Shown: piece after piece, positions 4,949 to 36,660 of the stretch
How positions within the stretch are numbered: position 1 is the first letter of the stretch
Layout of the letters: every line of letters starts with the position of its first letter
Source of the DNA: Aureispira sp. CCB-E
GTDB lineage: Bacteria; Bacteroidota; Bacteroidia; Chitinophagales; Saprospiraceae
NCBI RefSeq assembly: GCF_031326345.1
Contig: NZ_CP133671.1
Span: 5,766,001 to 5,830,000, forward strand
Length of the DNA stretch: 64,000 nt
Direction of reading: 5' to 3'
Made by a program: the position numbers and the translations under genes
Notes under the pieces: generated by a model
Database searches by the model: none
What the model was told of the DNA's origin: nothing
What the model saw: the letters and a program-made list of their open reading frames with translations, nothing else

Positions 4949-4995
4949 CAATAGTTATTCCTATCCAATTTTCAAATAACCTAAACTAAAAAAAT

Positions 4996-8103: not shown

Positions 8104-8276
8104 TGATTTACTATTTTTTGCTTTTAGTTAGCACTCAAAACAAACCTATTTTTATTATATTTTTTCTGACTTCTTGGAACTCTTTCAAGTAAATTTCTTT
8201 CATTTTCGCAGAGCACTTAGTATTCGTAGTTAGCGGTACGTACTAGCAACATCTTTAGCTATTGAATATATTATAA

Positions 8277-8422: not shown

Positions 8423-8441
8423 TTATAACAAAACTTTTAGA

Positions 8442-10880
8442 TTAAAATTTAAAATGAACAAAAATCGTAAAATTGATTGGCATTGCTTGAATATATTGCT
8501 CCCCTTCTTTTGGAAAGTTGGCTAAGTTATTATACTGGATATTGTATGTATTCAGCACGTTTAGCACCGAGCAACCAAAATCAATACTCAATTCTTTGAC
8601 CTTAAAACGATACAAACCTCCAACATCTAATCGACTATATGGACGTATATTTTTGTTAGAAGTTAGATTGTGAATATTTGGGAAACCACTTCCATAAACA
8701 TAGTTGGCAGATAAGAAAAATTGCTTCCAATTAAACATCCCTGCTACTTTAAATTCATGTCGTTGATCTTGTGGTGCTCTTGTAATTGGTTTATTTTTAT
8801 CAAACTGTACTTCTGATTTACTTAAGGTATAAGCCAACCATATTTGTTGATTTTTATAATGTGCTCCAAGCTTCACATCCAAACCATAATTGTAGGTTTT
8901 ACCAAAAGAGGTTTCTATAATTTTATTGTTACTATTGCTCCAATATTGTAATGTATTTTTAATTCTCTTATAATAGCCTTCTACTCTACAGTTCCAATAT
9001 TGGTAACGCCCAGAGAGCCCTAAAACAGTATGCGTAGCTTGAGGTACTGTATGATACTGTCCATTTGTTAAAGACCAATGATAAGTATAATTTCGATAGA
9101 AATCCACCAAAGTTGTTTCTGTTATAAACTGATTATAAACACCGTGTGCTAAATTAATTTTCCATGCATTCGAAGGAGAAAAGATCGCCTCTATACGTGG
9201 CTGTATATACAATTGAGTTTTATTTTGCAATGGCAAATCCGCCCGAATCCCCAAACGAATAAGCAATCCTTTAAACAAACTTAATTCGTCTTTTAGGTAA
9301 AACCCAAATCGATTAGAATATTGCTCTATATCCGCAAAACGTTCAATAATACCATGATTAATCTTAGAACTGTTATGCGTCAAGTTCACCCCTAGCGATA
9401 ATTGGTGGTATTGGAGCGCAGGAAAACTATGATCTCCTTTTATAGATACTTCTCGTACATTATTATAAAACCGTTGTTCGTATATACGTTGCAAATGTAT
9501 TGATGGAGCATTTCCACCATTATTCTGAACTGAAAAAATACTAAAATCTGTCGCAAAATTGGAATAAGCTACTCTAAGATTGGAGCGCCCCAGTTTCTTC
9601 CAAGGCTTGATATATGAAAAACTACCTGCTAACAATTCGCTGATTCGAGACTCTGTTTTTATACTTGTGGTAGAAGGTATATTTCTAGGACGCCTCGAAA
9701 TATCCACGTTTGCCAATGTTGTAAATGCAAAAGAAGCTCCATCGTCAAATCGGTGTGTATATTTCGTGGTAGCATCTATAAACATTGCTGTAGGAAATTG
9801 AGTAAGAGAAGCAATAGCATCGGGTCCAACAAAGCGAATTCCAACCTGAACACTTGACTTAGGAGCTACATTTAAATTCAAATATCCATTAAAAGAGGTT
9901 GGTGTCCCCATTATCTCTACCGTTGATGTATCTGTATTTCCCGACTTACTTGTAATATTGACTACTCCCCCCAAACGATCGCCAATATCTACATTATAGC
10001 CCCCCTTAAGCACCTCTATATCTTTTATCATGAGTGGATTGATCGCTCCTATCCTATCATTATAATTACTGGTGTTAAAAATTGTCATACCGTCAAAAAT
10101 AATATGCGTCTCTCCTTTTTGTCCTCCCCACAAAATATAACCATTGTTTTGTTCCCCCGATGCCATCACTCCTGGTTGCAAACGCAAAAATGAGAACAAG
10201 CTATTGTTGTTGCTACCTGGCAAGAAAGGTGTTTGGCGATTGTTTAGCTTTGACAATCCTGACTTTTGCTCTGGGTTTAGCAAATTTATTTTTTTCGTTG
10301 ATAACACCGTTATCTCTTGTAGTTCGGTTATAGATGGAGACAATTCAATCCACAAACCACGATCTGCATTGATGAGTGTGTCCAAGACAAAATAGCCTAC
10401 ATGCGAAGCCAATAAGTTTGCCTTCCGTTTGTCGGACTGGTATGTAAAGTTTCCATCGGCATCCGTTGTAATACTCGTTTTATCGATCAAAATAGTTGCA
10501 TAAGGTAGTTTTTCTTGGTTCATCTTATCCACTATTTTTCCTTGATAAATGTAGGTTTCTCCTTTGTGGTACACACTCTTTCTAGGGCGAGGCTTGGTTA
10601 CAATAAATACACCGTCCAACATCTTATAGTTACAACCACACACTTCTGCTAAATAATCAAAAGCTTCGTAAGGCGATTCAAAATGTTGATTGGCTGTAAT
10701 TAGACATTCATTCAGTAATTGAGCATTAAAAGATATCTGAATGTTGTAGTTCTGGTGAAAACTAGTCAATAACTCCCCCAAAGGCTCTGCTTCTGCATGG
10801 ACATTAATTTGCTGAGCATAGCTGTTGTATGCCAATAGAGACAGAATGAGTAAAACAATTATGGAGCGTGGTGTCTTCAA
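8442..10880 (-). CDS. TonB-dependent receptor with STN domain, paralogue 2
   Basis: 812 residues, same order as its neighbours: signal peptide to about residue 22 (SYAQQ), STN domain at about 23-93 with two Cys near CGCNY, CarbopepD-like domain at about 110-190, plug and barrel, ending NFTIFVHFKF. Plug and C-terminal third are nearly the same as in paralogue 1 (for example GDRLGGVVNITSKSGN), while barrel residues of about 320-480 differ clearly. That fits a shared transport and signalling chassis with changed extracellular loops. Ligand unknown. An M-family element follows its stop codon. Confidence 0.9.
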   Translation of the reverse strand: MKTPRSIIVLLILSLLAYNSYAQQINVHAEAEPLGELLTSFHQNYNIQISFNAQLLNECLITANQHFESPYEAFDYLAEVCGCNYKMLDGVFIVTKPRPRKSVYHKGETYIYQGKIVDKMNQEKLPYATILIDKTSITTDADGNFTYQSDKRKANLLASHVGYFVLDTLINADRGLWIELSPSITELQEITVLSTKKINLLNPEQKSGLSKLNNRQTPFLPGSNNNSLFSFLRLQPGVMASGEQNNGYILWGGQKGETHIIFDGMTIFNTSNYNDRIGAINPLMIKDIEVLKGGYNVDIGDRLGGVVNITSKSGNTDTSTVEIMGTPTSFNGYLNLNVAPKSSVQVGIRFVGPDAIASLTQFPTAMFIDATTKYTHRFDDGASFAFTTLANVDISRRPRNIPSTTSIKTESRISELLAGSFSYIKPWKKLGRSNLRVAYSNFATDFSIFSVQNNGGNAPSIHLQRIYEQRFYNNVREVSIKGDHSFPALQYHQLSLGVNLTHNSSKINHGIIERFADIEQYSNRFGFYLKDELSLFKGLLIRLGIRADLPLQNKTQLYIQPRIEAIFSPSNAWKINLAHGVYNQFITETTLVDFYRNYTYHWSLTNGQYHTVPQATHTVLGLSGRYQYWNCRVEGYYKRIKNTLQYWSNSNNKIIETSFGKTYNYGLDVKLGAHYKNQQIWLAYTLSKSEVQFDKNKPITRAPQDQRHEFKVAGMFNWKQFFLSANYVYGSGFPNIHNLTSNKNIRPYSRLDVGGLYRFKVKELSIDFGCSVLNVLNTYNIQYNNLANFPKEGEQYIQAMPINFTIFVHFKF

Positions 10881-11189
10881 TTGTTTTTAATCGGTTATTG
10901 AGTATATAGTAGTTAGCTGCGCCGCTATTTTGTGGTTGTTGATTATTATTCGCTGCGCTCATGAGATCGCAAGGTTAGTTCCCCTCATGACCTGCTGTCG
11001 TTTTACCCTATTAAGCAGCAAGTTTAGTTAGCCAAAAGATAAAAAAGCATATCCATTTTTTCCTTTATTTTTTTGACTACTTACAAAAAAGAGCAAAAAT
11101 TCATCATCATCACCTCGTCCAATAATCAAACCAACTATAATAATTATCAACCTAATTAACGTTTAAAAGAGTAATTCTTTCTTAACACG
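10881..11189. repeat. Decayed M-family-like repeat between receptor genes
   Basis: This 309-bp gap has no ORF. It contains TAGTAGTTAGCTGCG near 10909, GC-rich CGCTGCGCTCATGAGATCGC-type modules as in the element at 22963, and the core block CCAAAAGATAAAAAAGCA found in intact M elements at 8277 and 33183. The right end is not recognisable and no target duplication remains, so it looks like an old copy or composite. Confidence 0.4.
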
Positions 11190-13634
11190 CTAAAATTTAA
11201 AATGAACAAAGAATGTAAAGTTTCGTGGCATGGCTTGAATATATTGTTCCCCATCTTGCAAAAAATTTGCCCAATTGTTGTATTGAATATTATAAGTATT
11301 TAAGACATTGAGCACAGAACAACCAAAATCAACACTTAACTCCTTAACTCTAAAACGATAAAAACTACCAATATCTAATCGACTATACGAGCGTATGTTG
11401 TTATTGGATGTTAAGTTATGCTTGTTTGGGAAGCCACTTCCATAAACGTAATTAATAGACCAAAAAAATCGACCTACATTAAACATTCCTGCTACTTTAA
11501 ATTCGTGCCGTTGATCTTGTGGCGCTCTAGTTGGGGGCTGGTTTTTATTCAATTGCACTTCTGCCTTGCTCAAGGTATATGCCAACCATATTTGCTGATT
11601 TTTGTAGTGTGCCCCAAACTTAACATCTACCCCATAATTATAATGCTTCCCAAAAGAGGTTTCTATAATTTGATTGTTACTATCCCCCCAGTACTGCAAG
11701 GTATTTTTGGTACGTCTATAATAAGCTTCTAGGCGACAATTCCAATATTTATAACGACCAGATACCCCGATAACGGTATGGGTTGCTTGAGGGACAGGAT
11801 GGTATTTATTATTGGTCAAAGACCAATGGTATGTATAATTTCGATAAACATCAACAATAGTTGTCTCACTCAAAAATTGATTATAAACACCATGCGCCAA
11901 ATTAATTTTCCATTGTGACACAGGAGTAAATATCGCTTCAATTCTTGGTTGTATCAACAGTTTTGTATAGCTCTCTAGAGGTAGATCCGCTCGAATTCCT
12001 AATCTAAGCGTAAACCATTTAGAAAAGCTAATATCATCTTTAACATAGGCTCCAAGCCGATTGTTCTTTTGCTGAACGCCTTCAAATCGTTTGAGAATAC
12101 CATGGTTGATTAGAGAGCTATTGTAAGTAAAATTGAGACCAAAGGACAGTTGGTGGTACCGAGAAGCAGGTAGTCTATGCACCACTTTGGCAGAAACTTC
12201 TCGAACACTGTTGTAAAAATGCTGTTCGCCAATGCGTTCTAACCGACCTGTTCCATTAACATACAAGTCATAATGGCGAACATAATAATCCGTCATAAAT
12301 TCAGAATAAGCAAGACTAAATTGTGTTTGACCAATATTTTTCCAAGGTTTGATATAGTTCAAATTTCCTCCGTACAAATTGCTCAGTCTAAATTGATTGA
12401 TATACCAATAATCTGCTAAATAATGTTTTTTGGGAACATTCGAGGCATCGACATTAACCAACGATGTAAAACGTAAAGAACTGCCATCCTTAAACTGCTT
12501 GGCGTACCTCACTGTCAAATCCGAAAAAAAAGCCGTTGGTCGTATATTAATAGATGCAAAAATATCTGGTACAACGATACGAATGCCAAGTTGCAAACTT
12601 GACTGCTTCTTGAGGTCTAAATTCATATAAGCATTAAATGAATTGTGTGTTCCCAATAATTCTGTGGTAGAAGTATCCACGTTACCCGGCTTACTTGTAA
12701 TATTAACTACGCCTCCCAAGCGATCGCCAATTTCTACATTATATCCACCTTTTAAGATCTCAATATCTTGAATCAACAGAGGATTAATTGCGCCTATTTT
12801 ATTATTATAATTGCTTGTATTGAATATCGTAATCCCATCAAATAAAATATGCGTCTCTCCCTTCTGTCCTCCCCACAAAATATAACCATTATTTTGCTCA
12901 CCAGATGCCATGACACCAGGTTGCAAACGCAAAAAAGAAAACAAGCTATTTTTATTGTTTCCTGGCAAAAATAGTGTTTGACGGTTATTCAATTTTGCCA
13001 AGCCAGATCTGTCTTCTGAATTGATTGTTTTAATTTTTTGATTTGAAAATACCGTTACTTCTTGCAGTTCCGTAATAGAAGGTGCTAATTCAATCAAGAA
13101 GCCTCGCTTTGCTTTGACAAGCGTATCTTTTACAAAATACCCCAAATAAGACACCAACAGTTTTGCTTTGTTTTCTTCGGATTGGTAGGTAAAATTTCCT
13201 TCTACATCGGTCACTATCCGTGTATTGTCAATCAAAACTGTTGCATAGGGCAAATGGCCTTTATTTTCTTTGTCAATAATTTTTCCTTGATAAGTATATT
13301 TTTGTTTGAGCGAACGCATTTCCTTTGATATAGAACGCTTTTTGCTAATCACAAAAACGCCATCAATCACTCTGTACTTGAAGTTACAAAGTTTGGTTAA
13401 ATACTCTAAAACTTCGTTAGGAGATTCAAATTGCTGATCTACCGTTATTAGGCATTCATTCAACAATTGAGCATTAAAAGAAACTTGAACATCGTACTCT
13501 TGGTGTAAACTTCCCAATACCTCGCCCAAAGGTTTTGCTTTGACAGACAGATTGATTTGCTGAGCATAACTTTTGGAAGATGCATATAATAATACGATAA
13601 AGAGTAAAACAATTTTAGAGAGTGGTGGCTTCAA
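11190..13634 (-). CDS. TonB-dependent receptor with STN domain, paralogue 3 (sigma/FecR-proximal)
   Basis: 814 residues. Signal peptide to about residue 25 (SYAQQ), STN domain at about 26-96, CarbopepD-like domain at about 118-200, plug with ILFDGITIFN and GGYNVEIGDRLGG, barrel ending NFTFFVHFKF. It is the most diverged of the three, especially in barrel residues of about 320-480. The ATG is only 8 bp from the fecR stop, so fecR and this gene are surely co-transcribed. It is therefore the best candidate for the cognate signalling receptor of the ECF sigma factor; the two downstream paralogues may be read through or have their own promoters. Confidence 0.92.
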   Translation of the reverse strand: MKPPLSKIVLLFIVLLYASSKSYAQQINLSVKAKPLGEVLGSLHQEYDVQVSFNAQLLNECLITVDQQFESPNEVLEYLTKLCNFKYRVIDGVFVISKKRSISKEMRSLKQKYTYQGKIIDKENKGHLPYATVLIDNTRIVTDVEGNFTYQSEENKAKLLVSYLGYFVKDTLVKAKRGFLIELAPSITELQEVTVFSNQKIKTINSEDRSGLAKLNNRQTLFLPGNNKNSLFSFLRLQPGVMASGEQNNGYILWGGQKGETHILFDGITIFNTSNYNNKIGAINPLLIQDIEILKGGYNVEIGDRLGGVVNITSKPGNVDTSTTELLGTHNSFNAYMNLDLKKQSSLQLGIRIVVPDIFASINIRPTAFFSDLTVRYAKQFKDGSSLRFTSLVNVDASNVPKKHYLADYWYINQFRLSNLYGGNLNYIKPWKNIGQTQFSLAYSEFMTDYYVRHYDLYVNGTGRLERIGEQHFYNSVREVSAKVVHRLPASRYHQLSFGLNFTYNSSLINHGILKRFEGVQQKNNRLGAYVKDDISFSKWFTLRLGIRADLPLESYTKLLIQPRIEAIFTPVSQWKINLAHGVYNQFLSETTIVDVYRNYTYHWSLTNNKYHPVPQATHTVIGVSGRYKYWNCRLEAYYRRTKNTLQYWGDSNNQIIETSFGKHYNYGVDVKFGAHYKNQQIWLAYTLSKAEVQLNKNQPPTRAPQDQRHEFKVAGMFNVGRFFWSINYVYGSGFPNKHNLTSNNNIRSYSRLDIGSFYRFRVKELSVDFGCSVLNVLNTYNIQYNNWANFLQDGEQYIQAMPRNFTFFVHFKF

Positions 13635-15766: not shown

Positions 15767-18586
15767 ATGACAACCATTAAATTTCCCTCCCCTTTTGGTC
15801 TGGTTTTCCTATTAACTTTCATCACTTTCGAGGCATTTGCTCAAAATAAAATATATGTAAATAGGAATGCTTCGGGTGCAAATGATGGCACCTCTTGGGC
15901 AGATGCTTTTCAAGAAATTCAACCTGCCATTAACGCTGCCAATACAGGAGATAGCATTTGGGTAGCCGCAGGAACCTACTATCCCACTCTTGCCGTGGAT
16001 ATAGACAACTCAGGGCATACAATTTTCCAAGAAAAAACATTCTACATCAACAAAAATATTACCATACATGGTCAATTTCAAGGGAACGAAACTCTTTTCT
16101 CTCAACGCAACAAAGCACATCAAACCATTCTAAGTGGAGACATTGGAAGTCCATTAGATTCTACTGACAATGCCTTTCATGTCGTTTGTTTTGATGGAAC
16201 TACTGCTAATGGTACAATTACCAACAATACTGTTTTAGATGGTTTTATCATAGAACAAGGACAAGCTTCTGGCACCAACTTTCCACACAATGTAGGAGCA
16301 GGTATCTTTAATAATGGTCAAGGCATTGGCAATGAATGCAACCCTGTATTAACAAACTTATTCCTGCATCACAACTCTGCTAGTGCACAAGGAGGAGCCT
16401 TGTATAACGATGGTTCTCAAGGCGGCATTTGCAATCCCTATTTAACACAGCTTCTATTTCATTCTAATACTGCTCAAAATGGGGGTGCCATTTTTAATAA
16501 CAGTAATGCTGGGGTTGTAAATATATCTATTCACAACAGTTCTTTTACCAACAACACCGCTACACATTCTGGGGCAGGGCTTTACAGTTCCTCAACTAAC
16601 AGTGGTCGGCTTGATATTGTTACAATGAAAACTAAATTTGACAACAATTCAGCTTATGATGGTGCTGTCTACTATAATCATATTGCTACCAATAGTCATC
16701 TCAATGTTATGGTAGATAGCTCTTTTTTTGAGCACAATCTTTCTGTAAATCACGGAGGAGTATTTTGCAATCAATCAAGTGCCAGTAACACAACAATTAC
16801 TATCAATAATAGTACTTTTAGCAATAATAATAGCAGCAATCTAGGAGGCATTTTTTACAATACTAACAATAATGGCGCCTACTCGACCATCAATCTATCG
16901 ACCAACGAATTTAAAAACAATCGTTCTAATTCTTCTGGAGGAATTTGTTATACAACAGCCAACCAAGCCTCTCGGCAAGATATGTTCTTCACTCAAAATA
17001 AAGTTGAGTATACAACCGCCAATGGAAATGGAGGGGTGTTTTTTAACAACGGAGATTCTAGTAGTATTTTCCAACTTGAAATCATCAAAAACCAATTCGA
17101 ATCTAATAATGCAAGTTTAGGAGGAGTTTTTTACGACATGTTGACTAACAATTCTAGCTTAGACATTCAGTTAAAAAATAATTCCATTACTGGCAATACA
17201 GCTTTTAATGGTGCTGTATCTTTTCTAAATACTCGCTCTGGCTCTATTTGCAATTTGCTTTCAGTTGGCAATGACTATGTCTTTAACCAAGCGATTAACA
17301 AAGGAGGGGTGTTTTTTAATCAATACAATGCAGCCACAGGAAACACCACTCTAGTCAACGATATTTTACATGTTAACAGAAGTGAACACGACGGTGTTTT
17401 TTACCATAAAGGAGAAGCGAATAGTGCCCTTCACACCCAAATAATCAACTGCACTTTTAATGAAAATTATGCTTCTACAGGAGCTCGTTCAATTAGTAGT
17501 TTTGCCTTTTCTAGTGTCAATACAATCTCTATTAGCAATAGTATTTTTTATCACCTAGGTGGTGCTCTTTCTCAAATAAATACCAATGGTGGGCAAATTA
17601 ACCTTACCTATTCGCTTTATAATGATAACAACCCAGATGGAATAGTTACGTTACCTTTCGGAGTTACTGGCAGCAACAATATTGAGGGAGATCCCTTATT
17701 CAATAACGAACCAAGTGGCGATTTGACTTTAGCCGCCCTTTCTCCTGCTATTGATATAGGAAACAACGATAGCATTCCTTCTATTTTTACAGTTGACAAC
17801 AATGGTCAGCCTCGTATTTACAATACAATTATTGACTTAGGAGCACTAGAAACTATCAATAATTTATACAGTGAAATACGATTTTTAGGTCACGAACAAA
17901 CATCTTGCAATGGTCTCATGGACGGAGAAGTTTCATTTAAAACTTTGGGAGCTACCCCTCCTTTAAAAATCAATGGCGTCACCTATCTTGATCCCGTTTT
18001 TAATACGTTTTCTGGTCTAGCAGCTGGTACATATCAATACAACTTCGAAGATAGTCTTGGCAAAACAGATACGATTTATATCAATATTACAGAGCCCGAT
18101 CCTATTGTATTGAGTATTGAAGGCTTTTCTAATGGTCGTGCAAGTGTTACAGCTAGTGGCGGTACAGCCCCATATACCTATCAATGGAACGACAACAATC
18201 AACAAACAAGTGATGTTGCAACAGGTCTAACAACAGGAACATATACTGTCAGCGTGACAGATGCTAATGGTTGTATGCAAACAGCATCCGTTAATATCAG
18301 TATTATTTCCAACACTCAAACAATTGAAATGGACGAAGCAAATACTTTGAGTATCTTCCCCAACCCTAGCAACGGTGAATTTCAAGTTGTATTTAACTTA
18401 GCTTCTGCACAACAAATTCATCCCGTTTTGTACAATCTACAAGGGCAATGTGTTTATAAATTTCCAGCAAAAACAGGTCAAGATATCAACTACGAAGTTG
18501 ACTTAAAACAGTTACCTGCGGGAACCTATCTATTAAGCACTTTTATTAACCAAAAACGAGAGCATCAATTCATTGTTTTAAACTAA
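15767..18586 (+). CDS. T9SS-secreted right-handed beta-helix surface protein, copy 1
   Basis: 939 residues. Signal peptide ending AFAQN (about 27). Then the typical start of these proteins (IYVNRNASGANDGTSWADAF), and a long parallel beta-helix (about 60-640) made of repeated rungs with N-rich turns and GGIFYN / GGVFFN motifs. A choice-of-anchor-Q-like SPAIDIGNNDS element follows near 660, then one SprB-like repeat (TAPYTYQWNDN ... GTYTVSVTDANGC) near 790-840, and a C-terminal T9SS sorting domain (SIFPNPSNGEF). Likely exported and anchored at the surface as an adhesin or polysaccharide-binding protein; the ligand is unknown. Confidence 0.85.
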   Translation: MTTIKFPSPFGLVFLLTFITFEAFAQNKIYVNRNASGANDGTSWADAFQEIQPAINAANTGDSIWVAAGTYYPTLAVDIDNSGHTIFQEKTFYINKNITIHGQFQGNETLFSQRNKAHQTILSGDIGSPLDSTDNAFHVVCFDGTTANGTITNNTVLDGFIIEQGQASGTNFPHNVGAGIFNNGQGIGNECNPVLTNLFLHHNSASAQGGALYNDGSQGGICNPYLTQLLFHSNTAQNGGAIFNNSNAGVVNISIHNSSFTNNTATHSGAGLYSSSTNSGRLDIVTMKTKFDNNSAYDGAVYYNHIATNSHLNVMVDSSFFEHNLSVNHGGVFCNQSSASNTTITINNSTFSNNNSSNLGGIFYNTNNNGAYSTINLSTNEFKNNRSNSSGGICYTTANQASRQDMFFTQNKVEYTTANGNGGVFFNNGDSSSIFQLEIIKNQFESNNASLGGVFYDMLTNNSSLDIQLKNNSITGNTAFNGAVSFLNTRSGSICNLLSVGNDYVFNQAINKGGVFFNQYNAATGNTTLVNDILHVNRSEHDGVFYHKGEANSALHTQIINCTFNENYASTGARSISSFAFSSVNTISISNSIFYHLGGALSQINTNGGQINLTYSLYNDNNPDGIVTLPFGVTGSNNIEGDPLFNNEPSGDLTLAALSPAIDIGNNDSIPSIFTVDNNGQPRIYNTIIDLGALETINNLYSEIRFLGHEQTSCNGLMDGEVSFKTLGATPPLKINGVTYLDPVFNTFSGLAAGTYQYNFEDSLGKTDTIYINITEPDPIVLSIEGFSNGRASVTASGGTAPYTYQWNDNNQQTSDVATGLTTGTYTVSVTDANGCMQTASVNISIISNTQTIEMDEANTLSIFPNPSNGEFQVVFNLASAQQIHPVLYNLQGQCVYKFPAKTGQDINYEVDLKQLPAGTYLLSTFINQKREHQFIVLN

Positions 18587-18779
18587 TAAAGTCCCAGATT
18601 TAAATAGATAAAAATTACTTATTGCCTGTTAACGACCACATAATACAATATTCTTTCCCAACTAAAAAGGAAAAAATCAGCCCAAAGAACAAATAATCAC
18701 AACCATCTGATTTTCAAACAAAAACCACATAAAAAACACTTGTAAATTCTAAGAACAACCGCCTAAAAAAAACAAAAAA

Positions 18780-18840
18780 AGGTAGGGTACTCTTTCTTTT
18801 ACTCGGTTTAGCTAGTAAATATTTCAAAATAAAAATCATT
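18780..18840 (+). promoter_or_regulatory. Duplicated leader upstream of beta-helix gene 2
   Basis: Second copy of the leader at 15694: GGTAGGGTACTCT, CGGTTTA and TAAATATTTCAAAA in the same order, again about 10 bp before the ATG. It supports independent transcription of the second gene and duplication of a full promoter-gene unit. Confidence 0.45.
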
Positions 18841-18850
18841 ATTCAAAATC

Positions 18851-21691
18851 ATGACAAACACTAAGTTTATTACCCCTACTACACTCTTCTTTCTCCTATT
18901 CATTTCGATGAATTTTAATGCTTTTTCTCAAAACAAAATATATGTAAACATCAACGCTTCAGGTGCTAATGATGGTACTTCTTGGGCAGATGCTTTTCAA
19001 GAACTTCAACCTGCTATTAATGCTGCCAATGCAGGAGATAGCATTTGGGTAGCAGCAGGAACCTATTACCCCACGCTTGCTGTCGATACAGATAACTCAG
19101 GAAGTACAATTGACCGAGAAAAAACATTTTATATCAGCAAAAATATTACGATACACGGTCAATTCCAAGGCACTGAAACTCTCTTCTCGCAACGCAACAA
19201 GGCACATCAAACCATTCTAAGTGGAGACATTGGACTTTCTTTAGATCCTACCGACAATGCCTTTCATGTGGTTTATTTTGATGGAACAACTGCCAATGGT
19301 CCGATTACCAATAGCGCTGCCTTAGACGGTTTTATCATTGAGCAAGGGCAGGCATCTGGCGCTAGTTTCCCACACAATTCGGGAGCTGGTATTTTTAATA
19401 ACGGTCAAGGTATGGGCAATGGTTCTAATCCTCATTTAAACCAACTCATTATCAAACATAATAATGCTGACGATCATGGAGGAGCTATATACAATGATGG
19501 TAGCCAAGGTGGTGCTGCCGATTTGTTAGTAAATGCAAGTTTATTTGAGTTTAATGGTGCTCAATACGGAGCGGTTTGTTACAACAATGCAGCCTCAGGA
19601 GTAATCAACATTAATTTAACTCATAATAGCTATGAAAACAACACTTGTACAGAAGATGGAGCTGTTTTGTATAACAATGCAGATAATGGCTACATAGAGG
19701 CGACCTTAAACAACTCTTACTTCAAAATTAATATGGCTAATAATGGCGGTGTTTGTTACAACAATATTCTCAGTAGTGGTACCGCTTCTGTTAATTTCTC
19801 TTCTAACAAAACTTCCAGTAACCAAGTTATCAAAAATGGCGGAATTATCTACACCAATAACACACAAGGGACATACAACTTAACAGCAGAGGATAATGAA
19901 TTTGAGACCAATAGAGCTGTAGATGGTGGTATTTTTTATGCCATTCATAACAATGGTAGTAGTAACTTAAATATCAACAACAACTTATTTAACACCATCG
20001 AAGCAGATAGTTCTGGAGGTATTTTTTACAATCAAGCTAGCAATAGTATCGTTGGTTTAAATATTGAAAATAATAAATTCACATCCATTTCTTCGTATAA
20101 ATCTGGTGGTGTCTTGTACAATTCAGTTGACTCTTTTAGTATACTAGATTTGAGTTTTTCTAGTAATACCGTAGAAGGGTGTGGTAGTGTAAGCGGAGGA
20201 GTTATTTACAATACAACGACCAATGCTAGTATCAATCATTTATTTGAAAAAAACTTTGTTATCTTTTCTAATGGAACTATTTCTAGTACTGCCGATGGAG
20301 GAGTTATTTTTCAAGAAGCTATCTTAGGAGCAACTTCTTATTTCCTATCTAATTCGAATAGCTATATTAGCAATATGGTGAATTTTAGAGGAGGAGCTGT
20401 TTTTAATCGTTCCGATTCTAGTTGGTCCTACACAGCCTATATCAACGATATATTTGCTCGCAATAGTTCTGATAATTTCGGAGGAGCTCTTTGCAACGAT
20501 ATACTTAATGGTGGCGTTTTAAACACTCAAATTACCAACTCTAGCTTCCTAGATCAAGAAGCCACTATCGGAAAATCGTTTGTTGCATACAACCAAAATG
20601 TTGGAGGTTCAGCCCCTTCCATTACCAATATTAGCAATTCTATTTTTTGGCAATCTCAACCAACAACAGGTCCTTTAATCCACGAAATCACAACTGCTAA
20701 TACATTGGTGGATCTAAATTATTCAATTTATTTTGATGGCAATATCGATAATAATGTCATCTTATCGCCTGATGTATCAGGAGCCAATAACTTAGACAGT
20801 GATCCACTTTTTACAAGTACTATGTTTGGAGACTTAACCCTACAAAACACCTCTCCTGCTATTGACGCTGGAAACAATGATAGTATTCCATCTATTTTTA
20901 ACACCGACAACTACGGCTCTCCTCGTATCAACAACAACACCGTTGATATGGGCGCCACAGAATACCTAAATGGTCTTATTACATCCCCTCAAAGTTTCTA
21001 TCAACTTCCTCAATGTAATGGCGATTCTGGTCTTGTTAATATTATCTTGATGGGAGGTACTGCGCCGTATACAATCAATGGCGTTCCTTCTACCATGCCA
21101 ATAGGCGCTGTTATCGTAAATGATGTTGCAGGCAATTATCAATTTAACGTTGTTGATGCCAATGGACTAAGCAAAACAGTCAATGTAAACCTAACGGAAC
21201 CAGATCCAATTGTCTTAACAACAGCAGCTTTTTCTAATGGTAGCGCAAGCGTTACCGCGACAGGAGGCACGGCTCCTTATACCTATCAATGGGATGATGC
21301 CAATCAGCAAACCAGTGATGTAGCGACAGGTTTAACAACGGGAACGTACACTGTTTTAGTAACAGATGCTAATGGCTGTACACAAACAGCAACCGTTAAC
21401 ATTAGTGTTGTCTCTAGCACTCAAACAATTGAAATGGACAATAAAAATTCGTTGAGCATCTTCCCAAATCCATCTAATGGTCAATTTAGCATCGTATTTG
21501 AGTTAGCTTCAGAGCAATCACTGCGCCCTACCCTATATAATTTACAAGGACAAGTAGTTTATGAATTTGCCCAAAAAACAGGGCAAAACGTCAATTATGA
21601 GGCAAATTTGGAACATTTATCAGCTGGAACTTATGTTTTAAGTACGTTTATAAGTGGTCAACAAGAAACACAATTCATTATTTTAAAATAA
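18851..21691 (+). CDS. T9SS-secreted right-handed beta-helix surface protein, copy 2
   Basis: 946 residues, same architecture as the preceding gene: signal peptide ending AFSQN, nearly identical first ~190 residues, beta-helix with GG(I/V)(F/C)YN rungs, SPAIDAGNNDS element, SprB-like repeat (TAPYTYQWDDANQQTSDVAT) and T9SS domain (SIFPNPSNGQF). The central helix (about 200-640) differs strongly from copy 1, while both ends are conserved. So the export and anchoring parts are kept and the exposed solenoid has diversified. A strong terminator follows at 21809. Confidence 0.85.
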   Translation: MTNTKFITPTTLFFLLFISMNFNAFSQNKIYVNINASGANDGTSWADAFQELQPAINAANAGDSIWVAAGTYYPTLAVDTDNSGSTIDREKTFYISKNITIHGQFQGTETLFSQRNKAHQTILSGDIGLSLDPTDNAFHVVYFDGTTANGPITNSAALDGFIIEQGQASGASFPHNSGAGIFNNGQGMGNGSNPHLNQLIIKHNNADDHGGAIYNDGSQGGAADLLVNASLFEFNGAQYGAVCYNNAASGVININLTHNSYENNTCTEDGAVLYNNADNGYIEATLNNSYFKINMANNGGVCYNNILSSGTASVNFSSNKTSSNQVIKNGGIIYTNNTQGTYNLTAEDNEFETNRAVDGGIFYAIHNNGSSNLNINNNLFNTIEADSSGGIFYNQASNSIVGLNIENNKFTSISSYKSGGVLYNSVDSFSILDLSFSSNTVEGCGSVSGGVIYNTTTNASINHLFEKNFVIFSNGTISSTADGGVIFQEAILGATSYFLSNSNSYISNMVNFRGGAVFNRSDSSWSYTAYINDIFARNSSDNFGGALCNDILNGGVLNTQITNSSFLDQEATIGKSFVAYNQNVGGSAPSITNISNSIFWQSQPTTGPLIHEITTANTLVDLNYSIYFDGNIDNNVILSPDVSGANNLDSDPLFTSTMFGDLTLQNTSPAIDAGNNDSIPSIFNTDNYGSPRINNNTVDMGATEYLNGLITSPQSFYQLPQCNGDSGLVNIILMGGTAPYTINGVPSTMPIGAVIVNDVAGNYQFNVVDANGLSKTVNVNLTEPDPIVLTTAAFSNGSASVTATGGTAPYTYQWDDANQQTSDVATGLTTGTYTVLVTDANGCTQTATVNISVVSSTQTIEMDNKNSLSIFPNPSNGQFSIVFELASEQSLRPTLYNLQGQVVYEFAQKTGQNVNYEANLEHLSAGTYVLSTFISGQQETQFIILK

Positions 21692-22962: not shown

Positions 22963-23282
22963 TAGTAGTTCGTTGATTATTTTATGAGATCGCTTCGCTT
23001 AGTTACCTACGGTGCTACTTCGTGGTAGTTCGCTTTGTTACTCCCTTTGGTCGTGAGCTCGCTATGCTCGGTTCGCTCATGACCTTGGGCTTTTGTGCTA
23101 CTAGCACAAGCCTACTCGGCAAGCTTAGTTTTTTACTTTTTTACCCAAAAGATAAAAAAGCACATTTATATTAGTTTGATAATCAAATTTTTAACACAAA
23201 ACACAACAAAGGCGCAACTTGCTAATTATCAACTGCGCAGCACTCACGAAGTAAACTAATAAAGTTTTTCAACGAACTATTG
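22963..23282. mobile_element. MITE-like element family M, 320-bp composite copy
   Basis: Ends TAGTAGTTCGTTG / CAACGAACTATTG as in the 146-bp copies, flanked by AAGTGC (22957-22962) and AAGTAC (23283-23288), a 6-bp duplication with one change. The right ~160 bp matches the 146-bp core. Two blocks are extra: a GC-rich array after the left end (CTTCGTGGTAGTTCGC, GAGCTCGCTATGCTCGG, CTACTAGCACAAGCCT), and a 20-bp insert CTGCGCAGCACTCACGAAGT that splits the inner inverted repeat. It lies in the divergent region, 31 bp from the serine hydrolase start. Confidence 0.8.
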
Positions 23283-31245: not shown

Positions 31246-31623
31246 TTATCGAATGCCTTCTATATCCGCTTTAAATTTTTGAATCAATGTAGTGGTAAAC
31301 CCTTCCATTACTTCCTCTTCTTCTTCATCTATCCCATTACTAGCTTTTGCCATCGCCTCCATTACGTCAATCATATTCTGATACTCTGGATTAGGACCAG
31401 CATAGGTACAATAGTCGAGTACTTTGGCATATATTTCGTCTATTGGGCGCTGTTTTTTACGCTCATAATTAAAAGACCATTTAATGTCTGCTGCCCAAGG
31501 ATGTTCTGCTAAAACGTTTTCTAAGGCACTAATTTCTTCTTCTTGAATCAAACCATCTGCCATTGCTACGACATAAAGTAGTTCTCCAAATGCTTCGTAT
31601 AATTTTTCGTGATTGTGTTCCAT
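31246..31623 (-). CDS. TerB-like (tellurite-resistance TerB fold) acidic protein
   Basis: 125 residues, all-helical and acidic. Two half-repeats carry the TerB metal-binding-like acidic motifs: MADGLIQEEEISALE (about 21-35) and ASNGIDEEEEEVME (about 92-105). TerB/DjlA-N folds bind divalent metal and act as helical adaptor modules. No ter operon is nearby, so a direct role in tellurite resistance is not implied. It lies downstream of the GT4 gene (52 bp gap) on the same strand and could be its last operon member. Confidence 0.75.
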   Translation of the reverse strand: MEHNHEKLYEAFGELLYVVAMADGLIQEEEISALENVLAEHPWAADIKWSFNYERKKQRPIDEIYAKVLDYCTYAGPNPEYQNMIDVMEAMAKASNGIDEEEEEVMEGFTTTLIQKFKADIEGIR

Positions 31624-31675: not shown

Positions 31676-32821
31676 CTATTTGTCGTTGCTAGGCGACATC
31701 AACGCTTTTATTCCATTGATCAAACTTGCCCAAGAGAAATCGGCTTTGCGTGCTTGCACCCCTTTTCTGAATTCAGCAGCTCGGTTATTTTGATAAAAAT
31801 TAACAATGCCATCTGCGACTTCCGTTGCATTATTAGGAGCGACGACATAACCTACCTTATTGTGTTCGACGACTTCTGGCAAACCTCCTACTTTGGTCAC
31901 CAACATAGGGACTTCAAAATGATAAGCTAGTTGAGAAATACCGCTCTGAGTAGCCGTTCTATACGGCTGAACCACCATATCTGCGGCTCCAAAATATGCG
32001 CCTACTTCATCTTTAGGAATATAATCTGTTCGCAAAATCAGCAAATCGTGTAGATTGTGCTTTTCTATTAATTCTCGATAAACCGCTTCACTATCATAAA
32101 ACTCTCCCGCCACAATTAATCGGACGCCTAAATTTCGAATCCTAGGATCCCCCATTGCCTCTAATAAGATATCCAGTCCTTTGTATTTTCTAATAAATCC
32201 GAAAAACAACAAATAAGGCTGTTCAAAAGGAATGTTCAACGCCGCACAAGCCGTTTTTTTATCCCAATGCGCTCCGTAACTATCGTAGATAGGGTGTGGA
32301 ATATATACTACCTTTTGTTGTTGGGTAATAAATGCTTGCAACTCGGCTTCTACAGAACGAGACATCACCACAAAACCATCTACGGGTTTGACAAAATACT
32401 TCGCAAAGGTCTTGTCTCCAATTCGTTTTTCGTGTGGAATTATATTATCAATAATAGAGACAATTTTAGTGTGTCGGTTCTTTTTTATCTGTCTTAGTAT
32501 CGTTCCCAAGCAAGGTCCCATAAAAGGCAACCAAAATCGACAGACTACCAAATCTGGTTGCATCTTTCTGATTTTATTGCCAATAGCCAGCCAGTTAAAA
32601 GGATTCACGGAATTCATAGCAACGTCAATATCCAAATCAACAGGTTGAGGTTCTTCTGAGTATTGTGTTTTGCCAGGAAAAAGGAAATTAGGATACTGCA
32701 AACTAAACGTCACGATGTGTACGTCGTCACCCATCTCTATAAACTCTCTTGCAATCCGCTCATTGAACTCTGCCAGTCCTCCACGCAAAGGATGTGCTGG
32801 ACCTATAATAACTATTTTCAT
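31676..32821 (-). CDS. Glycosyltransferase family 4 (GT-B)
   Basis: 381 residues. N-terminal GPAHPLRGGLAEFNERIA (6-23) is the acceptor-side glycine loop. The C-terminal half has LLFFGFIRKYKGLDILLEAM and QPYRTATQSGISQLAYHFEV followed by TKVGGLPEVV, the donor-binding EX7E-type region of GT4. It transfers a sugar from a nucleotide donor to a lipid or glycan acceptor at the inner membrane. Its ATG overlaps the stop of the broken RDD gene by 4 bp (ATGA), so it belonged to the operon GT2-RDD-RDD-RDD-GT4. The mobile elements upstream may make its expression depend on a new promoter. Confidence 0.9.
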   Translation of the reverse strand: MKIVIIGPAHPLRGGLAEFNERIAREFIEMGDDVHIVTFSLQYPNFLFPGKTQYSEEPQPVDLDIDVAMNSVNPFNWLAIGNKIRKMQPDLVVCRFWLPFMGPCLGTILRQIKKNRHTKIVSIIDNIIPHEKRIGDKTFAKYFVKPVDGFVVMSRSVEAELQAFITQQQKVVYIPHPIYDSYGAHWDKKTACAALNIPFEQPYLLFFGFIRKYKGLDILLEAMGDPRIRNLGVRLIVAGEFYDSEAVYRELIEKHNLHDLLILRTDYIPKDEVGAYFGAADMVVQPYRTATQSGISQLAYHFEVPMLVTKVGGLPEVVEHNKVGYVVAPNNATEVADGIVNFYQNNRAAEFRKGVQARKADFSWASLINGIKALMSPSNDK

Positions 32822-33182
32822 TTTTTTTCATTTTTAACAACATAGGTCTCGCTAATAATATCATTCATACCTCGTTTATCGGTAAATACAATCATCCATA
32901 AACCCAAAAACGTTATGGTTGCAACTATACTAGCTCCTAGGCGTCCCAATGCTCTTAACAAAGTCATCCGTTCTCCTTTTTTATTAACCACTTTTATAGA
33001 AACGATAAATTTTCCAACGGATGCCTGTAATTTACTTGATTCAAATAAAGGATAATAAAGCAATAGGCTTCCATAATACAAAATTTCATGAATTAAAAGC
33101 GCACTGCTGCTAGGCAAAATTAGGCTAATAATACTATCCAAACCAGCAATAAATACACTAATAATGATGATTACTATTAAAT

Positions 33183-33328
33183 TAGTAGTTCGTTGATTTT
33201 TTACTTTTTTACCAAAAAGACAAAAAAGCACATCCATATTAGTTTGATTATCAAAATCTTACCACAGAATGCATTAAAATCATAATTTATTAATTATCAA
33301 ACTAATAAAGTTTTTCAACGAACTATTG
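33183..33328. mobile_element. MITE-like element family M, 146-bp copy inside the RDD gene
   Basis: Same length as the copy at 8277 and very similar along its whole length. Ends TAGTAGTTCGTTG / CAACGAACTATTG; target duplication TTAAAT at 33177-33182 and 33329-33334. The inner inverted repeat TTAGTTTGATTATCAA / TTATCAAACTAA is retained. It supplies about 18 spurious N-terminal codons to the downstream RDD fragment. The right duplication overlaps the left 8-bp duplication of the adjacent IS, so the two insertions touch. Confidence 0.9.
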
Positions 33329-33340
33329 TTAAATCAAAAT

Positions 33341-34216
33341 TCAGAAACGTACACTTTTTAAATCGAGAAGAAGCTCTTTGAAAATATCGGAATAAAAATC
33401 GTGAAATTCAAAATAGGCATCCCACAACATTTTGCCTATGCAAAAGATAGAAAAATGGGAAGGTTGATCTTGTCTACATATTTTCTTTAAGGTTTTAAGG
33501 TCAACTTTTTTTGAATTTAAACCTGCTAAAACAGTGAATAAATAGGCTAAACAAACTGCTATTAAAAGTCTAGATACTCTATCTGGTGCTCTTAATTTAC
33601 TTTTGTGAATATTAAAACCTCTAGATTTTAAGTCTCCAAATAAGGTTTCTATACTGAATCGTTTTTTGTATAAACGGATTACTTCGGGTGGATAATCTAT
33701 ATTCGAAACTAAATACCAAGGGTCTTTATGTTTAGGATCATGATGACAAAAAACGTGAATAGGACCATACTTTTTATGGGTATAAAGCACATTCGGAATC
33801 CAATTTGTCTGTGTTCCTTCACTAGGATATAAATAAGCACCTAGTGTTATTTTCTCATCTCTACCCTTAAATCTAATTAACCTATTTTTAGCAGTACGGC
33901 AAACAACATCCCAACCTTGGGTTTTACAAAAGTTTAATAATTCTATTTTTGAAAACTCGCCATCTCCCAAAAGTGTCACTTTACAAGTTTGAGGTAGTAG
34001 TTTAGAAAAATTCTCTAATAACTCAAGATGCATTTCAACTGGGAAATGACCTTTTTTGCCTCTACGAACTAACCAACACAGGGGAATTGCTCTTTTACGC
34101 CAAACCAAACTAATCATCAAGCAAACACAGCCATTTCCAACAGGACTTCCATCTATAGCAAATACTGCTTGTTTACGAGTAGCTAGATTCTCTAGTATCT
34201 TAGCTAAAAATGGCAA
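33341..34216 (-). CDS. IS4-family transposase, catalytic part (orfB)
   Basis: 291 residues in this frame. DDE catalytic residues: Asp in FAIDGSPVGNG, Asp in LLGDGEFSK, Glu in the Y-x2-R-x3-E-x6-K signature YKKRFSIETLFGDLK, which is diagnostic of IS4-family transposases. The frame could start at a TTG but more likely is entered by -1 slippage from the upstream frame on a run of eight T. It catalyses cut-and-paste transposition. The stop codon lies inside the left terminal repeat. Confidence 0.9.
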   Translation of the reverse strand: MPFLAKILENLATRKQAVFAIDGSPVGNGCVCLMISLVWRKRAIPLCWLVRRGKKGHFPVEMHLELLENFSKLLPQTCKVTLLGDGEFSKIELLNFCKTQGWDVVCRTAKNRLIRFKGRDEKITLGAYLYPSEGTQTNWIPNVLYTHKKYGPIHVFCHHDPKHKDPWYLVSNIDYPPEVIRLYKKRFSIETLFGDLKSRGFNIHKSKLRAPDRVSRLLIAVCLAYLFTVLAGLNSKKVDLKTLKKICRQDQPSHFSIFCIGKMLWDAYFEFHDFYSDIFKELLLDLKSVRF

Positions 34217-34452
34217 AAAAAATGCTCAGTATCTATATATTCATTACTTACCCAACGTTTAAATTTCTTTACTCGACTTTGGAAATCAAGATCGGGGCAA
34301 ACAACCTTAGAGAGGTTGGTTAATCGACTATGATTTGTTTTTAAAAGGCTATAAATCATTATTGAAAGGGTTGCTAATCTCCTTGATGCATTACCTTTTA
34401 ACTCTCCTCCTTGTGCATTTTCTAATGCTTTTTTTATATCTTTGATCTTCAT
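34204..34452 (-). CDS. IS4-family transposase, N-terminal part (orfA)
   Basis: 82 residues, MKIKDIKKALENAQGGELKG to EHFFCHF. It forms the N-terminal helical DNA-binding part of the transposase. It overlaps the catalytic frame by 13 bp; in the overlap the coding strand reads CA followed by eight T and GCC. Moving back one base on TTT-TTT-TTG joins both frames into one protein of about 370 residues, the expected size. Either programmed -1 frameshifting or one missing T explains the split. Confidence 0.8.
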   Translation of the reverse strand: MKIKDIKKALENAQGGELKGNASRRLATLSIMIYSLLKTNHSRLTNLSKVVCPDLDFQSRVKKFKRWVSNEYIDTEHFFCHF

Positions 34453-34698
34453 GGTTAGTGCTATTTATTGTGTCCGCTAAAACACTTTTTTATAATAAAT
34501 ACACTAACCTATTTTTTATTCCTGACTTTTCAATCAACTTTCTCGTTTTTTTCAAAAGTGTACGTTTGCAAAAATCAAAAAAGAAAGCAATCATACGCAA
34601 TGTTGCTCCCACAGAAATCAATTGTGCTTCTTCTTTGGGCAAAGTATGATTTACCGACCATTCATCCAATAACTCATCACTCATAAAAATTACCTTCT

Positions 34699-35157
34699 TT
34701 ATTGCTCCACAACATAAGTATCTACAATTAAATCGTGCAAGCCTCTTTTTTTGCTTGTAAAAGCAATCATAACAAAACCAAGATAAGCAATGCTACAAGA
34801 CAACCCTTTTGCCAAAAGTCGAAGCAATGCCTGTCCAAAATTCAAGCCTTCTCCTTTTGAATCAACTACTTTTATTCCAAAAATTTGCTTGCCAATAGAT
34901 GCTTGCCACTTGCTAGACTCCATCAGTGGAAAATACAAAAAAGAAATTGCTGCAGTTCCAAAATAGTCTACTTCATTAATAATCGTTGGTATTACAAGAC
35001 CTACCATTCCAAGGATAGCACTCCAAAATGAGTGTATAATTGAAAGTATGATTAAATCTAAAAGAGCAGCTCCTAAGCGTGTCCAAAAGCCAATATAAAT
35101 TTGCGTTTTGGATGCTTCTTCTAAATAATCTAAGTCGTCTAGTAATTCCGTATTCAT
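34699..35157 (-). CDS. RDD-family membrane protein
   Basis: 152 residues. Short acidic N-terminus, then RDD pattern: Arg in FWTRLGAALLDLIIL with the first helix (about 26-50), a second helix (IPTIINEVDYFGTAAISFLYFPLME, where SSKWQASIGKQIFGIKVV is the central RDD motif at about 82-99) and a third helix ending KKRGLHDLIVDTYVVEQ. RDD proteins are small three-helix inner-membrane proteins, some of which act in transport or ion homeostasis. Its ATG overlaps the stop of the preceding RDD gene by 4 bp; the broken RDD gene is 14 bp downstream. Confidence 0.85.
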   Translation of the reverse strand: MNTELLDDLDYLEEASKTQIYIGFWTRLGAALLDLIILSIIHSFWSAILGMVGLVIPTIINEVDYFGTAAISFLYFPLMESSKWQASIGKQIFGIKVVDSKGEGLNFGQALLRLLAKGLSCSIAYLGFVMIAFTSKKRGLHDLIVDTYVVEQ

Positions 35158-35603
35158 TTTTGATTTTTATGCTCTATTACATACGTTCCTAGAATGCCCC
35201 CATAATTTTGAGTCTTATTGGTTAGTAGAAGCACTAATAAAATCGGACTTAACGACAGTTTGACAACAAATCTTGCCAAAGCATGCCCAAATCCTATTCG
35301 ATGTTTTTGATGACCGACTACTTTTATTCCAATCCATTGCTTGCCAATCGTCCCTTGCCGTAGACTACTCTCTCCTATCGCAAAGTAACAAGCAATACCA
35401 AGATAAGATAGCAACTGTAAGTATTGGTACAAAAAAGAGGATTCGGTCATTATCAAGATCAAATCACTAAACAAAACATACACACTCATTAATAGGAATA
35501 CATCAATTCCCATTGCCAACAATCGTTGTTTAAAAGAAGCATGAACCATTTGGTTTTCAAACAAAGAAGTTTGATTATCATCTAACAATTCATCTCCTTC
35601 CAT
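35154..35603 (-). CDS. RDD-family membrane protein
   Basis: 149 residues. First helix with FKQRLLAMGIDVFLLMSVYV (Arg and Asp of the RDD pattern), central motif SSLRQGTIGKQWIGIKVVGH, third helix with LVLLLTNKTQNYGGILGTYV. The last part lacks the usual RGLHD, making it the most diverged of the three. It starts 4 bp after the GT2 gene stop and overlaps the next RDD gene by 4 bp, so translation is probably coupled. Confidence 0.8.
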   Translation of the reverse strand: MEGDELLDDNQTSLFENQMVHASFKQRLLAMGIDVFLLMSVYVLFSDLILIMTESSFLYQYLQLLSYLGIACYFAIGESSLRQGTIGKQWIGIKVVGHQKHRIGFGHALARFVVKLSLSPILLVLLLTNKTQNYGGILGTYVIEHKNQK

Positions 35604-35607
35604 TTAT

Positions 35608-36660
35608 TTATTTTTTCAAATCTTCCTGTATTAAAGTTCTTTGCTTTTCCAAAAGAGCTTCTAGCACGTCTAAATTAACCTTTCCCATCGTTTTGTGTTT
35701 ATCCAATCCAAGAAATTGATCAACGCCATATTGGTTTCTTGTCGGTGCATTTCGAGCAACCAATTCAGCTAAGAAGCCAGTCAAAAACAACTGGGTTCCC
35801 ATAATCATACAAGTCAAGGCAATATAAAAATAAGGCGAATTGGTCACTAGAGGCATTGGAGCACCTTGTCCCAAATAATACAATTTGGTAAAACCTATAA
35901 TTGCTGCCGAAACAAATCCTAGTGCAAATAAAATACCTCCCCAAAGACCAAATAAATGCATGGGACGCTTCCCAAAACGACCAACAAACATAATTGAAAG
36001 CAAATCTAATGGTCCTCTGATGAAACGAGCTGGTCCAAACTTAGTCTCACCATGTACTCTAGCTTGATGTTTGACTGCTTTTTCGCCGATTTTAGTAAAA
36101 CCTGCATTATGAGCAATAACAGGAATATAACGATGCATTTCACCGTATACTTCTATATTTTTAACAACAGTTTTTCGATAAGCTTTTAATCCACAATTAA
36201 AGCCATGCAATTGAATGCCAGACATTTTTCGGGTCGTCCAATTATAAATTTTGCTGGTATTGTTTTTGATAAACGAGTCGAAACGCTTTTGTTTCCATCC
36301 CGAAACCAAATCATAGCCTTCTTCCGTCACCATTCGATACATTTCGGGCAATTCATCGGGAGAATCTTGTAAATCTGCATCCATGGTAAACACCACATCT
36401 CCTGTGGCTGCTTTAAATCCCTCACTTAGCCCTGCCGACTTACCGTAGTTTCGACGAAACTTCAGACCTTTAACATTAGGATTTAAACGCCTTAGCCCTT
36501 CTATTACCTCCCATGAGTTATCGGTACTTCCATCATCTATAAAAATGACTTCATAAGAAAAATGATTCGCTTCCATCACCCTCCGAATCCAAGCTTCTAG
36601 TTCTGGCAAAGATTCGCTTTCATTTAATAATGGAATGACGATTGATATATTTGGATTCAT
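35608..36660 (-). CDS. Glycosyltransferase family 2 with C-terminal membrane anchor
   Basis: 350 residues. GT-A domain at about 1-220: SIVIPLLNESESLPEL, FIDDGSTDNSWEV, and the metal-binding DADLQD (93-98) typical of dolichol/undecaprenyl-phosphate glycosyltransferases of the DPM1/ArnC type. Two membrane helices follow (about 232-254 and 268-292). It probably moves a sugar onto undecaprenyl phosphate. It heads the GT2-RDD-RDD-RDD-GT4 run; DUF4199 genes upstream are common neighbours of this GT2 type in Bacteroidota. Confidence 0.9.
   Translation of the reverse strand: MNPNISIVIPLLNESESLPELEAWIRRVMEANHFSYEVIFIDDGSTDNSWEVIEGLRRLNPNVKGLKFRRNYGKSAGLSEGFKAATGDVVFTMDADLQDSPDELPEMYRMVTEEGYDLVSGWKQKRFDSFIKNNTSKIYNWTTRKMSGIQLHGFNCGLKAYRKTVVKNIEVYGEMHRYIPVIAHNAGFTKIGEKAVKHQARVHGETKFGPARFIRGPLDLLSIMFVGRFGKRPMHLFGLWGGILFALGFVSAAIIGFTKLYYLGQGAPMPLVTNSPYFYIALTCMIMGTQLFLTGFLAELVARNAPTRNQYGVDQFLGLDKHKTMGKVNLDVLEALLEKQRTLIQEDLKK

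Follow-up and report, generated by a model that had tools for sequence, protein, structure and literature searches.

Introduction

Several families of bacterial miniature inverted-repeat transposable elements (MITEs) have been described, including the ERIC/RU, Correia and Rickettsia palindromic elements, treated in sections of the review PMC10969869, and the BrickBuilt elements of Porphyromonas, treated in parts of PMC4596501. RU elements that lie inside genes sometimes give in-frame fusions, according to passages of PMC2759123. Split transposases of the DDE_Tnp_1 type with conserved frameshift sites are known from a portion of PMC3711429 whose text does not contain the term IS4, and the term is likewise absent from the portion of the frameshifting review PMC5009743 consulted here. 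For the RDD family of membrane proteins, passages of PMC5996927 report ion antiport by a member from Halobacillus. The same passages describe two conserved residues of the first membrane segment, an Arg at its start and an Asp midway along it. Antiport by one RDD protein examined there did not need this pair but did need a C-terminal Arg and Asp.

Here we describe a locus in Aureispira sp. CCB-E (genome of 7.39 Mb in two contigs) at which a MITE-like repeat and an insertion sequence have struck the same RDD gene. The window, by which we mean the whole stretch of DNA analysed, comprises 64,000 nt (NZ_CP133671.1, positions 5,766,001-5,830,000). On its minus strand lies a row of genes encoding a GT2 glycosyltransferase, RDD 1, RDD 2, a broken RDD 3, a GT4-type glycosyltransferase and a TerB-like protein; the operon layout is GT2-RDD-RDD-RDD-GT4, and the interrupted member is the third RDD gene. 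With a probability of about 0.94, RDD 3 is a young pseudogene that arose in the CCB-E lineage by two transposition events, in which the MITE-like element, here called M, and an IS4-type element entered the same A/T-rich site among the codons of the first membrane segment and each duplicated its own target.

Results

The coordinates of the genes, the elements and their duplications are collected in Table 1. All three RDD genes exceed the PF06271 cut-off of 24.1 bits, the broken one through its C-terminal ORF.

Table 1. Features of the RDD block and its insertions, in window positions.
Feature	Position	Strand	Evidence
TerB-like gene	31246-31623	-	24.5 bits (cut-off 24.4)
GT4-type glycosyltransferase, 381 aa, intact; start overlaps RDD stop by 4 bp	31676-32821	-	PF00534/PF13692/PF13439
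RDD gene 3, 3' piece with original stop	32818-33182	-	PF06271, 45.3 bits on ORF 32818-33237
Chimeric ORF, 139 aa; M and its duplication give the ATG and 19 residues, RDD gene 3 the rest (codons 38-157)	32818-33237	-	
M target duplication TTAAAT, left copy	33177-33182		
M element, 146-bp MITE-like repeat, ends TAGTAGTTCGTTGA / TCAACGAACTATTG	33183-33328	+	
M target duplication TTAAAT, right copy	33329-33334		
IS target duplication AATCAAAA, left copy	33332-33339		
IS4-type insertion sequence, 1,233 bp, ends TTCAGAAACGTACACTTTT / TTTGCAAACGTACACTTTT	33340-34572	-	
Transposase ORF B, 291 aa, DDE domain	33341-34216	-	PF01609, 53.1 bits
Transposase ORF A, 82 aa	34204-34452	-	
Run of 8 T on the coding strand, at the ORF A/ORF B overlap	34215-34222	-	
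IS target duplication AATCAAAA, right copy	34573-34580		
RDD gene 3, 5' piece, start codon to break in first membrane segment	34576-34684	-	junction with 33182 reproduces CCB-QB1 gene exactly
RDD gene 2, intact, 152 aa	34699-35157	-	PF06271, 84.1 bits
RDD gene 1, intact, 149 aa	35154-35603	-	PF06271, 59.3 bits
GT2 glycosyltransferase, upstream neighbour of the RDD block	35608-36660	-	PF00535, 114.7 bits

A sequence-only reading of this DNA had proposed that RDD 3 is split by a 146-bp M element with a 6-bp TTAAAT duplication and by an IS4-family element with an 8-bp duplication. Both were recovered at their coordinates and with the element types proposed, the latter with AATCAAAA on both sides, and both target duplications are perfect. 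The elements had also been called nested, which they are not: neither lies inside the other, and M with its duplication stands beside the IS, separated from it by the spacer CAAAA (33335-33339), with the two insertion points five bases apart. Their duplications do overlap, as had been noted: the trinucleotide AAT within the ancestral site TTAAATCAAAA belongs to both. Either order of insertion leads to an identical final sequence, so the order cannot be read from the duplications. Removal of 1,393 bases (146 + 6 + 1,233 + 8) leaves a 474-base frame of 157 codons in which FFFD joins LIVIIII at codons 37/38, in agreement with the restoration that had been predicted; the lengths given for the intact neighbours (149 and 152 residues) and the 4-bp overlap between GT4 and the RDD stop (32818 versus 32821) hold as well. 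What remains is a short N-terminal piece that runs into the IS and a C-terminal piece that lacks the gene's own start.

Two insertions five bases apart are improbable by blind chance, which counts against the reading given above: by a hand estimate, a second hit so near corresponds to about 22 of 62,500 aligned bases, or roughly 4 in 10,000. The chance becomes higher at an A/T-rich hot spot, as it does when the gene is already broken and a further hit is neutral, and the site was chosen for its striking look.

By a genome scan with RDD 2, whose protein is 99% identical there, we reached the sister strain Aureispira sp. CCB-QB1. It has an empty site: RDD 3 is one 157-codon frame that reads ...AFFFDLIVIIII..., and GT4 comes next, overlapping it by 4 bases as in CCB-E. 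An uninterrupted orthologue with the join FFFD-LIVIIII, which the sequence-only reading had anticipated in a relative, thus exists, and it is identical to the restored frame at 474 of 474 bases. This single-frame allele rules out two separate genes at the site.

The IS4-type element occurs twice in the CCB-E genome, in copies identical over 1,233 bp; the second lies around G000:C1:1895961-1897188, between copies of the target duplication ATAAAAAA. Its terminal inverted arms of 18 bp are 94% complementary. ORF A had no family match in Pfam or NCBIfam, and ORF B matches PF01609 (DDE_Tnp_1, cut-off 23 bits). Against NCBIfam NF033591 (transpos_IS4_2), ORF B scored 143.1 bits at a cut-off of 152, covering profile positions 50-295 of 340 with the N-terminal part in the other frame, and the frame split can explain this shortfall. 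Members of the IS4 family carry a Y-2-R-3-E-6-K signature and duplicate about 8 bp of their target. By eye, in the translation of the identical second copy, the signature falls within YKKRFSIETLFGDLK of ORF B.

ORF B lies in the -1 frame relative to ORF A. A relative of the transposase (E <= 1e-20) was found in one of 12 other genomes, that of the congener G006; in CCB-QB1 none was found at this threshold, and since the two CCB-E copies are also identical, the IS is recent. The T8 run and its neighbouring bases are kept in the G006 copy, a single diverged copy with an ORF B that is 90% identical, which favours a conserved signal for frameshifting or slippage over decay. Two ideas linking the IS with M were rejected. 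Homing of the IS to M ends is at odds with the second copy, which sits at ATAAAAAA in a stretch with no M end at up to 2 mismatches (one case), and the IS is not a candidate driver of M, the ends of the two elements being different.

M is 146 bp long, lacks a transposase gene and has 14-bp inverted ends with 2 mismatches. Its exact ends TAGTAGTTCGTTGA and TCAACGAACTATTG each occur in 131 copies in the CCB-E genome, and TAGTAGTTCGTTGA in 137 copies in CCB-QB1. Elsewhere the exact TAGTAGTTCGTTGA occurs once each in G002, G008 and G021, a chance level (the reversed control also gave 1 in G002 and in G021), and was absent from the remaining 8 of the 12 genomes searched; in each of seven congeners it occurs 0 or 1 times. 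The insertion in RDD 3 suggests that the M family, elsewhere mostly intergenic, has moved since the two strains parted. A copy at 1210211 seemed to be lacking in CCB-QB1 on a noisy, coordinate-only synteny map, but direct comparison refuted this absence.

We surveyed duplications at 60 loci, the 30 best matches in each of CCB-E and CCB-QB1, with shared sites counted twice; two loci could not be placed. The 58 placed copies carry duplications of 6 bp (37 copies), 5 bp (8) or 7 bp (10), or none (3). With the window copy set aside, 55 of 57 placed copies, again the best-matching ones in the two strains with shared sites counted twice, have no ORF of at least 100 aa across the empty site, so an intragenic M is unusual.

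Compared with a 53-copy consensus, the window copy carries differences in 16 of 147 columns. Its nearest relatives among the copies scored (40 of 459 candidates in CCB-E and 40 of 466 in CCB-QB1) differ at 9 and 10 of 147 columns, respectively. Among these the window copy has no near-identical donor, which is odd for a recent copy and counts against a recent insertion, an objection softened by the concentration of variation in the family: across 49 distinct copies, 332 of 396 changes fall in 40 of 147 columns. On alignment, the family is a conserved frame with a hypervariable apex. Predicted self-folding is strong on the RDD coding strand (-38.7 kcal/mol, z -6.1) and on the other strand (-26.6 kcal/mol, z -5.2). 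Only 5 of 46 predicted pairs have changes on both sides, so the covariation support is thin, and Rfam returned nothing for M at E up to 1.

Searches for an element that shares the ends of M were negative within their scope. By eye, no properly oriented pair of exact M ends lay 0.6-4 kb apart among the first 100 of 131 places per end; 20 stretches, mostly around M ends without an exact partner, held none when scanned for end positions (ORFs were viewed in one); and five multi-copy DDE_Tnp_1 families shared no M ends (42 genome matches, 34 loci scanned). That no autonomous partner of M was found among the families compared also counts against the reading of two transposition events.

Short GC-rich inserts, or cassettes, occur at fixed places in M copies. 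By eye these measure about 20 and 32 bp, plus a repeated T/A target of 2-3 bp. Of 33 orthologous M-bearing stretches compared between CCB-E and CCB-QB1, 11 contain an indel of at least 8 bp. In six of these a single cassette of 22 bp or of 34 to 36 bp within M is cleanly present in one strain and missing from the other, and in two the difference is a replacement inside M; the other three, among them a cassette-like piece of 26 bp and a stretch of 267 bp, lie outside any M recognised in CCB-E. The M copy at 22963-23282, which is not among the 33, shows a more complex strain difference. A 17-base cassette core occurs 98 times in CCB-E, 112 in CCB-QB1, 37 in G001, 12 in G003 and 11 in G006; it was absent from four other congeners, and the reversed control gave 0 in all 9 genomes. 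Because the core is present in G001, G003 and G006, where exact M ends are absent, the cassette is independent of M, and it is probably the older of the two. We tentatively raise a broader reading, which is possible if rather unlikely. In it, M elements would be landing sites for cassettes that form a set of their own, very small, GC-rich and either mobile or excisable, and that occur in several species of the genus. Such cassettes would move into and out of fixed slots at a rate far above that of other indels in these genomes, within an M frame that is almost invariant around a hypervariable apex, and one such M copy would have given the broken RDD gene 3 a start codon. The cassette differences would ordinarily be explained by deletion of hairpins that lie between short repeats.

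The strongest alternative to loss of RDD 3 is that the broken gene still works, with M supplying an in-frame start and a positively charged N-terminus to a 139-aa RDD protein with a shortened first membrane segment, the translation of which keeps the overlapping GT4 start coupled. The ORF that begins at the ATG within M is indeed open for 139 codons, the last 120 of them RDD codons. In the intact CCB-QB1 RDD 3, R30 and D37 align with the R and D of the other three intact proteins, and the cut falls directly after D37, such that the chimera lacks the Arg and Asp of the first segment; a salvaged product is nevertheless conceivable, since these residues were unneeded for antiport in the RDD protein described in passages of PMC5996927. 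Against such a product, the ATG stands in a strongly folding stretch, and no promoter evidence emerged. Sigma-70-like sites in 32800-35200 numbered 6, against a shuffle mean of 10.0, in a scan that does not cover Bacteroidota promoters. A further promoter motif, TAnnTTTG, has a single coding-strand match in 32800-35200, where the density in the window predicts about 2.2; this match lies in the gene downstream of the ATG. The 4-base RDD-GT4 overlap recurs in G003, but 248 bases separate the genes in G001, so coupling is not general. We consider a working chimera very unlikely. A separate proposal, that the ATG is a mutation of the window copy alone, was discarded: copy L007 has the ATG too, making two of the 49 distinct M copies with it.

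Returning to the young pseudogene, its age was judged from the strain pair. Alignment of the window with CCB-QB1 gives three blocks, 99.5% identical over 62,492 columns (62.5 kb), with 261 substitutions (about 0.4% of aligned bases), and, M elements and the RDD 3 inserts aside, with all indels at most 5 bp. Between 32585 and 34702 there is no substitution outside the inserts. Given this identity, the empty site and the lack of nearby substitutions, the break is young and, of the two strains, only in CCB-E. The insertions might instead predate the strain split, with CCB-QB1 later restored to the empty state, either through precise excision or because it recombined with an allele that had no insertions, and the divergence of the window M copy from every scored copy is consistent with such an age. 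That history is even less probable than a working chimera: the 474 identical bases and unchanged flanks carry no sign of decay or of import at RDD 3, and with no IS transposase relative detected in CCB-QB1, two elements would have to have been lost precisely. An assembly artefact at a repeat is most improbable, for although M and the IS are both repeated in the CCB-E genome, misassembly would not make the separate duplications of local target bases that flank each insertion, and the second IS copy bears a different one, ATAAAAAA.

GT4 downstream is intact, with no internal stop. It has matches of at least 66% identity in five of seven congeners (86% in G001 and G006, 79% in G003, 70% in G004 and 66% in G007), a 51% match in G002 and weak matches only in G005. 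That it has lost its original transcript continuity, as the sequence-only reading stated, is conjecture: the transposase reads in the same direction as GT4, which makes read-through from the transposase gene possible, and a simple scan of 32800-35200 found 0 terminator-like sites, against a shuffle mean of 1.3. GT4 is most likely still expressed, perhaps through read-through from an upstream promoter or from the transposase gene.

The number of RDD genes between GT2 and GT4 is one in G003, three in G001, four in G006 and three in CCB-QB1. With a copy number of one to four across these four genomes, losing one RDD copy looks tolerable, and one copy can evidently suffice in another species (G003). 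The loss probably persisted because two intact paralogues are left and because in other genomes this operon can go down to a single RDD gene. Outside the strain pair, the best RDD 3 match among the genomes searched, in G006, is only 49% identical, so RDD 3 evolves fast.

Discussion

The elements, their duplications, the empty site and the exact frame are direct observations at this locus. As a clean and recent gene loss with an intact allele in a strain about 0.4% apart, it makes the cost of losing an RDD paralogue, and the effect on the downstream GT4, directly measurable. The gene loss itself is ordinary; the M family is more interesting, and the RDD 3 find is mainly an entry to it. Within that family, the cassette differences are the part for a repeat specialist to follow. 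Our literature search found no paper joining Aureispira with "miniature inverted-repeat transposable", and among the matches listed no title concerned repeats of the genus.

As to known systems, all three genes of the block match the RDD family of membrane proteins (PF06271), and their tandem copies are the sole unusual trait here. The insertion sequence resembles the IS4 family (NF033591) in its DDE domain, its Y-2-R-3-E-6-K signature, its 18-bp inverted arms and its 8-bp duplication, but differs in having its transposase split over two frames at the T8 run. M shares with the ERIC/RU, Correia, BrickBuilt and Rickettsia palindromic elements, as portrayed in the parts of the literature cited above, its short length, lack of a transposase, inverted ends and short target duplication, as well as its tens to hundreds of copies, mostly intergenic and sometimes within genes. 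It differs from them in the absence of an Rfam match at E up to 1, in that no IS with the same ends was found in the part searched, and in being present in many copies only in CCB-E and CCB-QB1 among the 13 genomes searched. The locus also recalls the pneumococcal BOX/RUP/SPRITE clusters, described in passages of PMC10969869 as elements inserted into one another, in that small repeats hit one another and pseudogenes; the Aureispira case differs in placing a MITE-like element and a full IS side by side. RDD 3 was broken by two recent insertions of an ordinary sort, and the case adds a further example to kinds already known.

Variation and relatives of the M family

Sequence change in M, the 146-bp MITE-like repeat, is concentrated at a hypervariable apex: in an alignment of 49 distinct copies (A2), 40 of the 147 columns hold 332 of the 396 changes, and the frame outside them is almost invariant. 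Between CCB-E and its near-identical sister strain CCB-QB1, 6 of 33 orthologous stretches are clean cases in which a short GC-rich cassette (22 bp or 34–36 bp) sits in one strain only at the same M copy, and a cassette core was found also in three of the seven congeners. Among the 53 copies compared, the nearest relative of the copy in the third RDD gene is L007:1501-1646; four derived bases are common to these two only. The outward ATG of the copy in the RDD gene recurs in the L007 copy, which is without a target duplication.

Coordinates of features in M copies, the IS element and the rest of the window
Feature	Location	Remark
Hypervariable apex of M	A2, columns 36-75	
Cassette present in one strain, absent from the other (stretch pairs)	L034/L105, L132/L013, L112/L008, L183/L016, L199/L182, L022/L114	
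M copy with more complex cassette-type difference between strains	window 22963-23282	outside the 33 stretches
T8 run in IS transposase	window 34215-34222	
Tandem paralogues	window 4433-5511	two ORFs of 171 aa
Tandem paralogues	window 5659-13634	three ORFs of 812-814 aa
Tandem paralogues	window 15767-21691	two ORFs of 939 and 946 aa
Substitution-rich kilobase	window 60000-60999	27 substitutions vs CCB-QB1; average about 4

The IS element and its surroundings

In the IS4-type element adjoining M, a T8 run marks the point where the transposase gene is divided between two reading frames. Because this run is conserved in a diverged relative from the congener G006 (L096), the sequence suggests programmed frameshifting or slippage. 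The whole CCB-E genome, with 42 DDE_Tnp_1 matches (two on contig 2), many of them in families of near-identical copies, is IS-rich.

Elsewhere in the window, the three sets of tandem paralogues gave off-register matches to CCB-QB1 with 69–78% DNA identity, and the substitution-rich kilobase may reflect local recombination. In three congeners (L102, L103 and L104), four, three and one RDD genes, respectively, lie between the glycosyltransferase genes GT2 and GT4.
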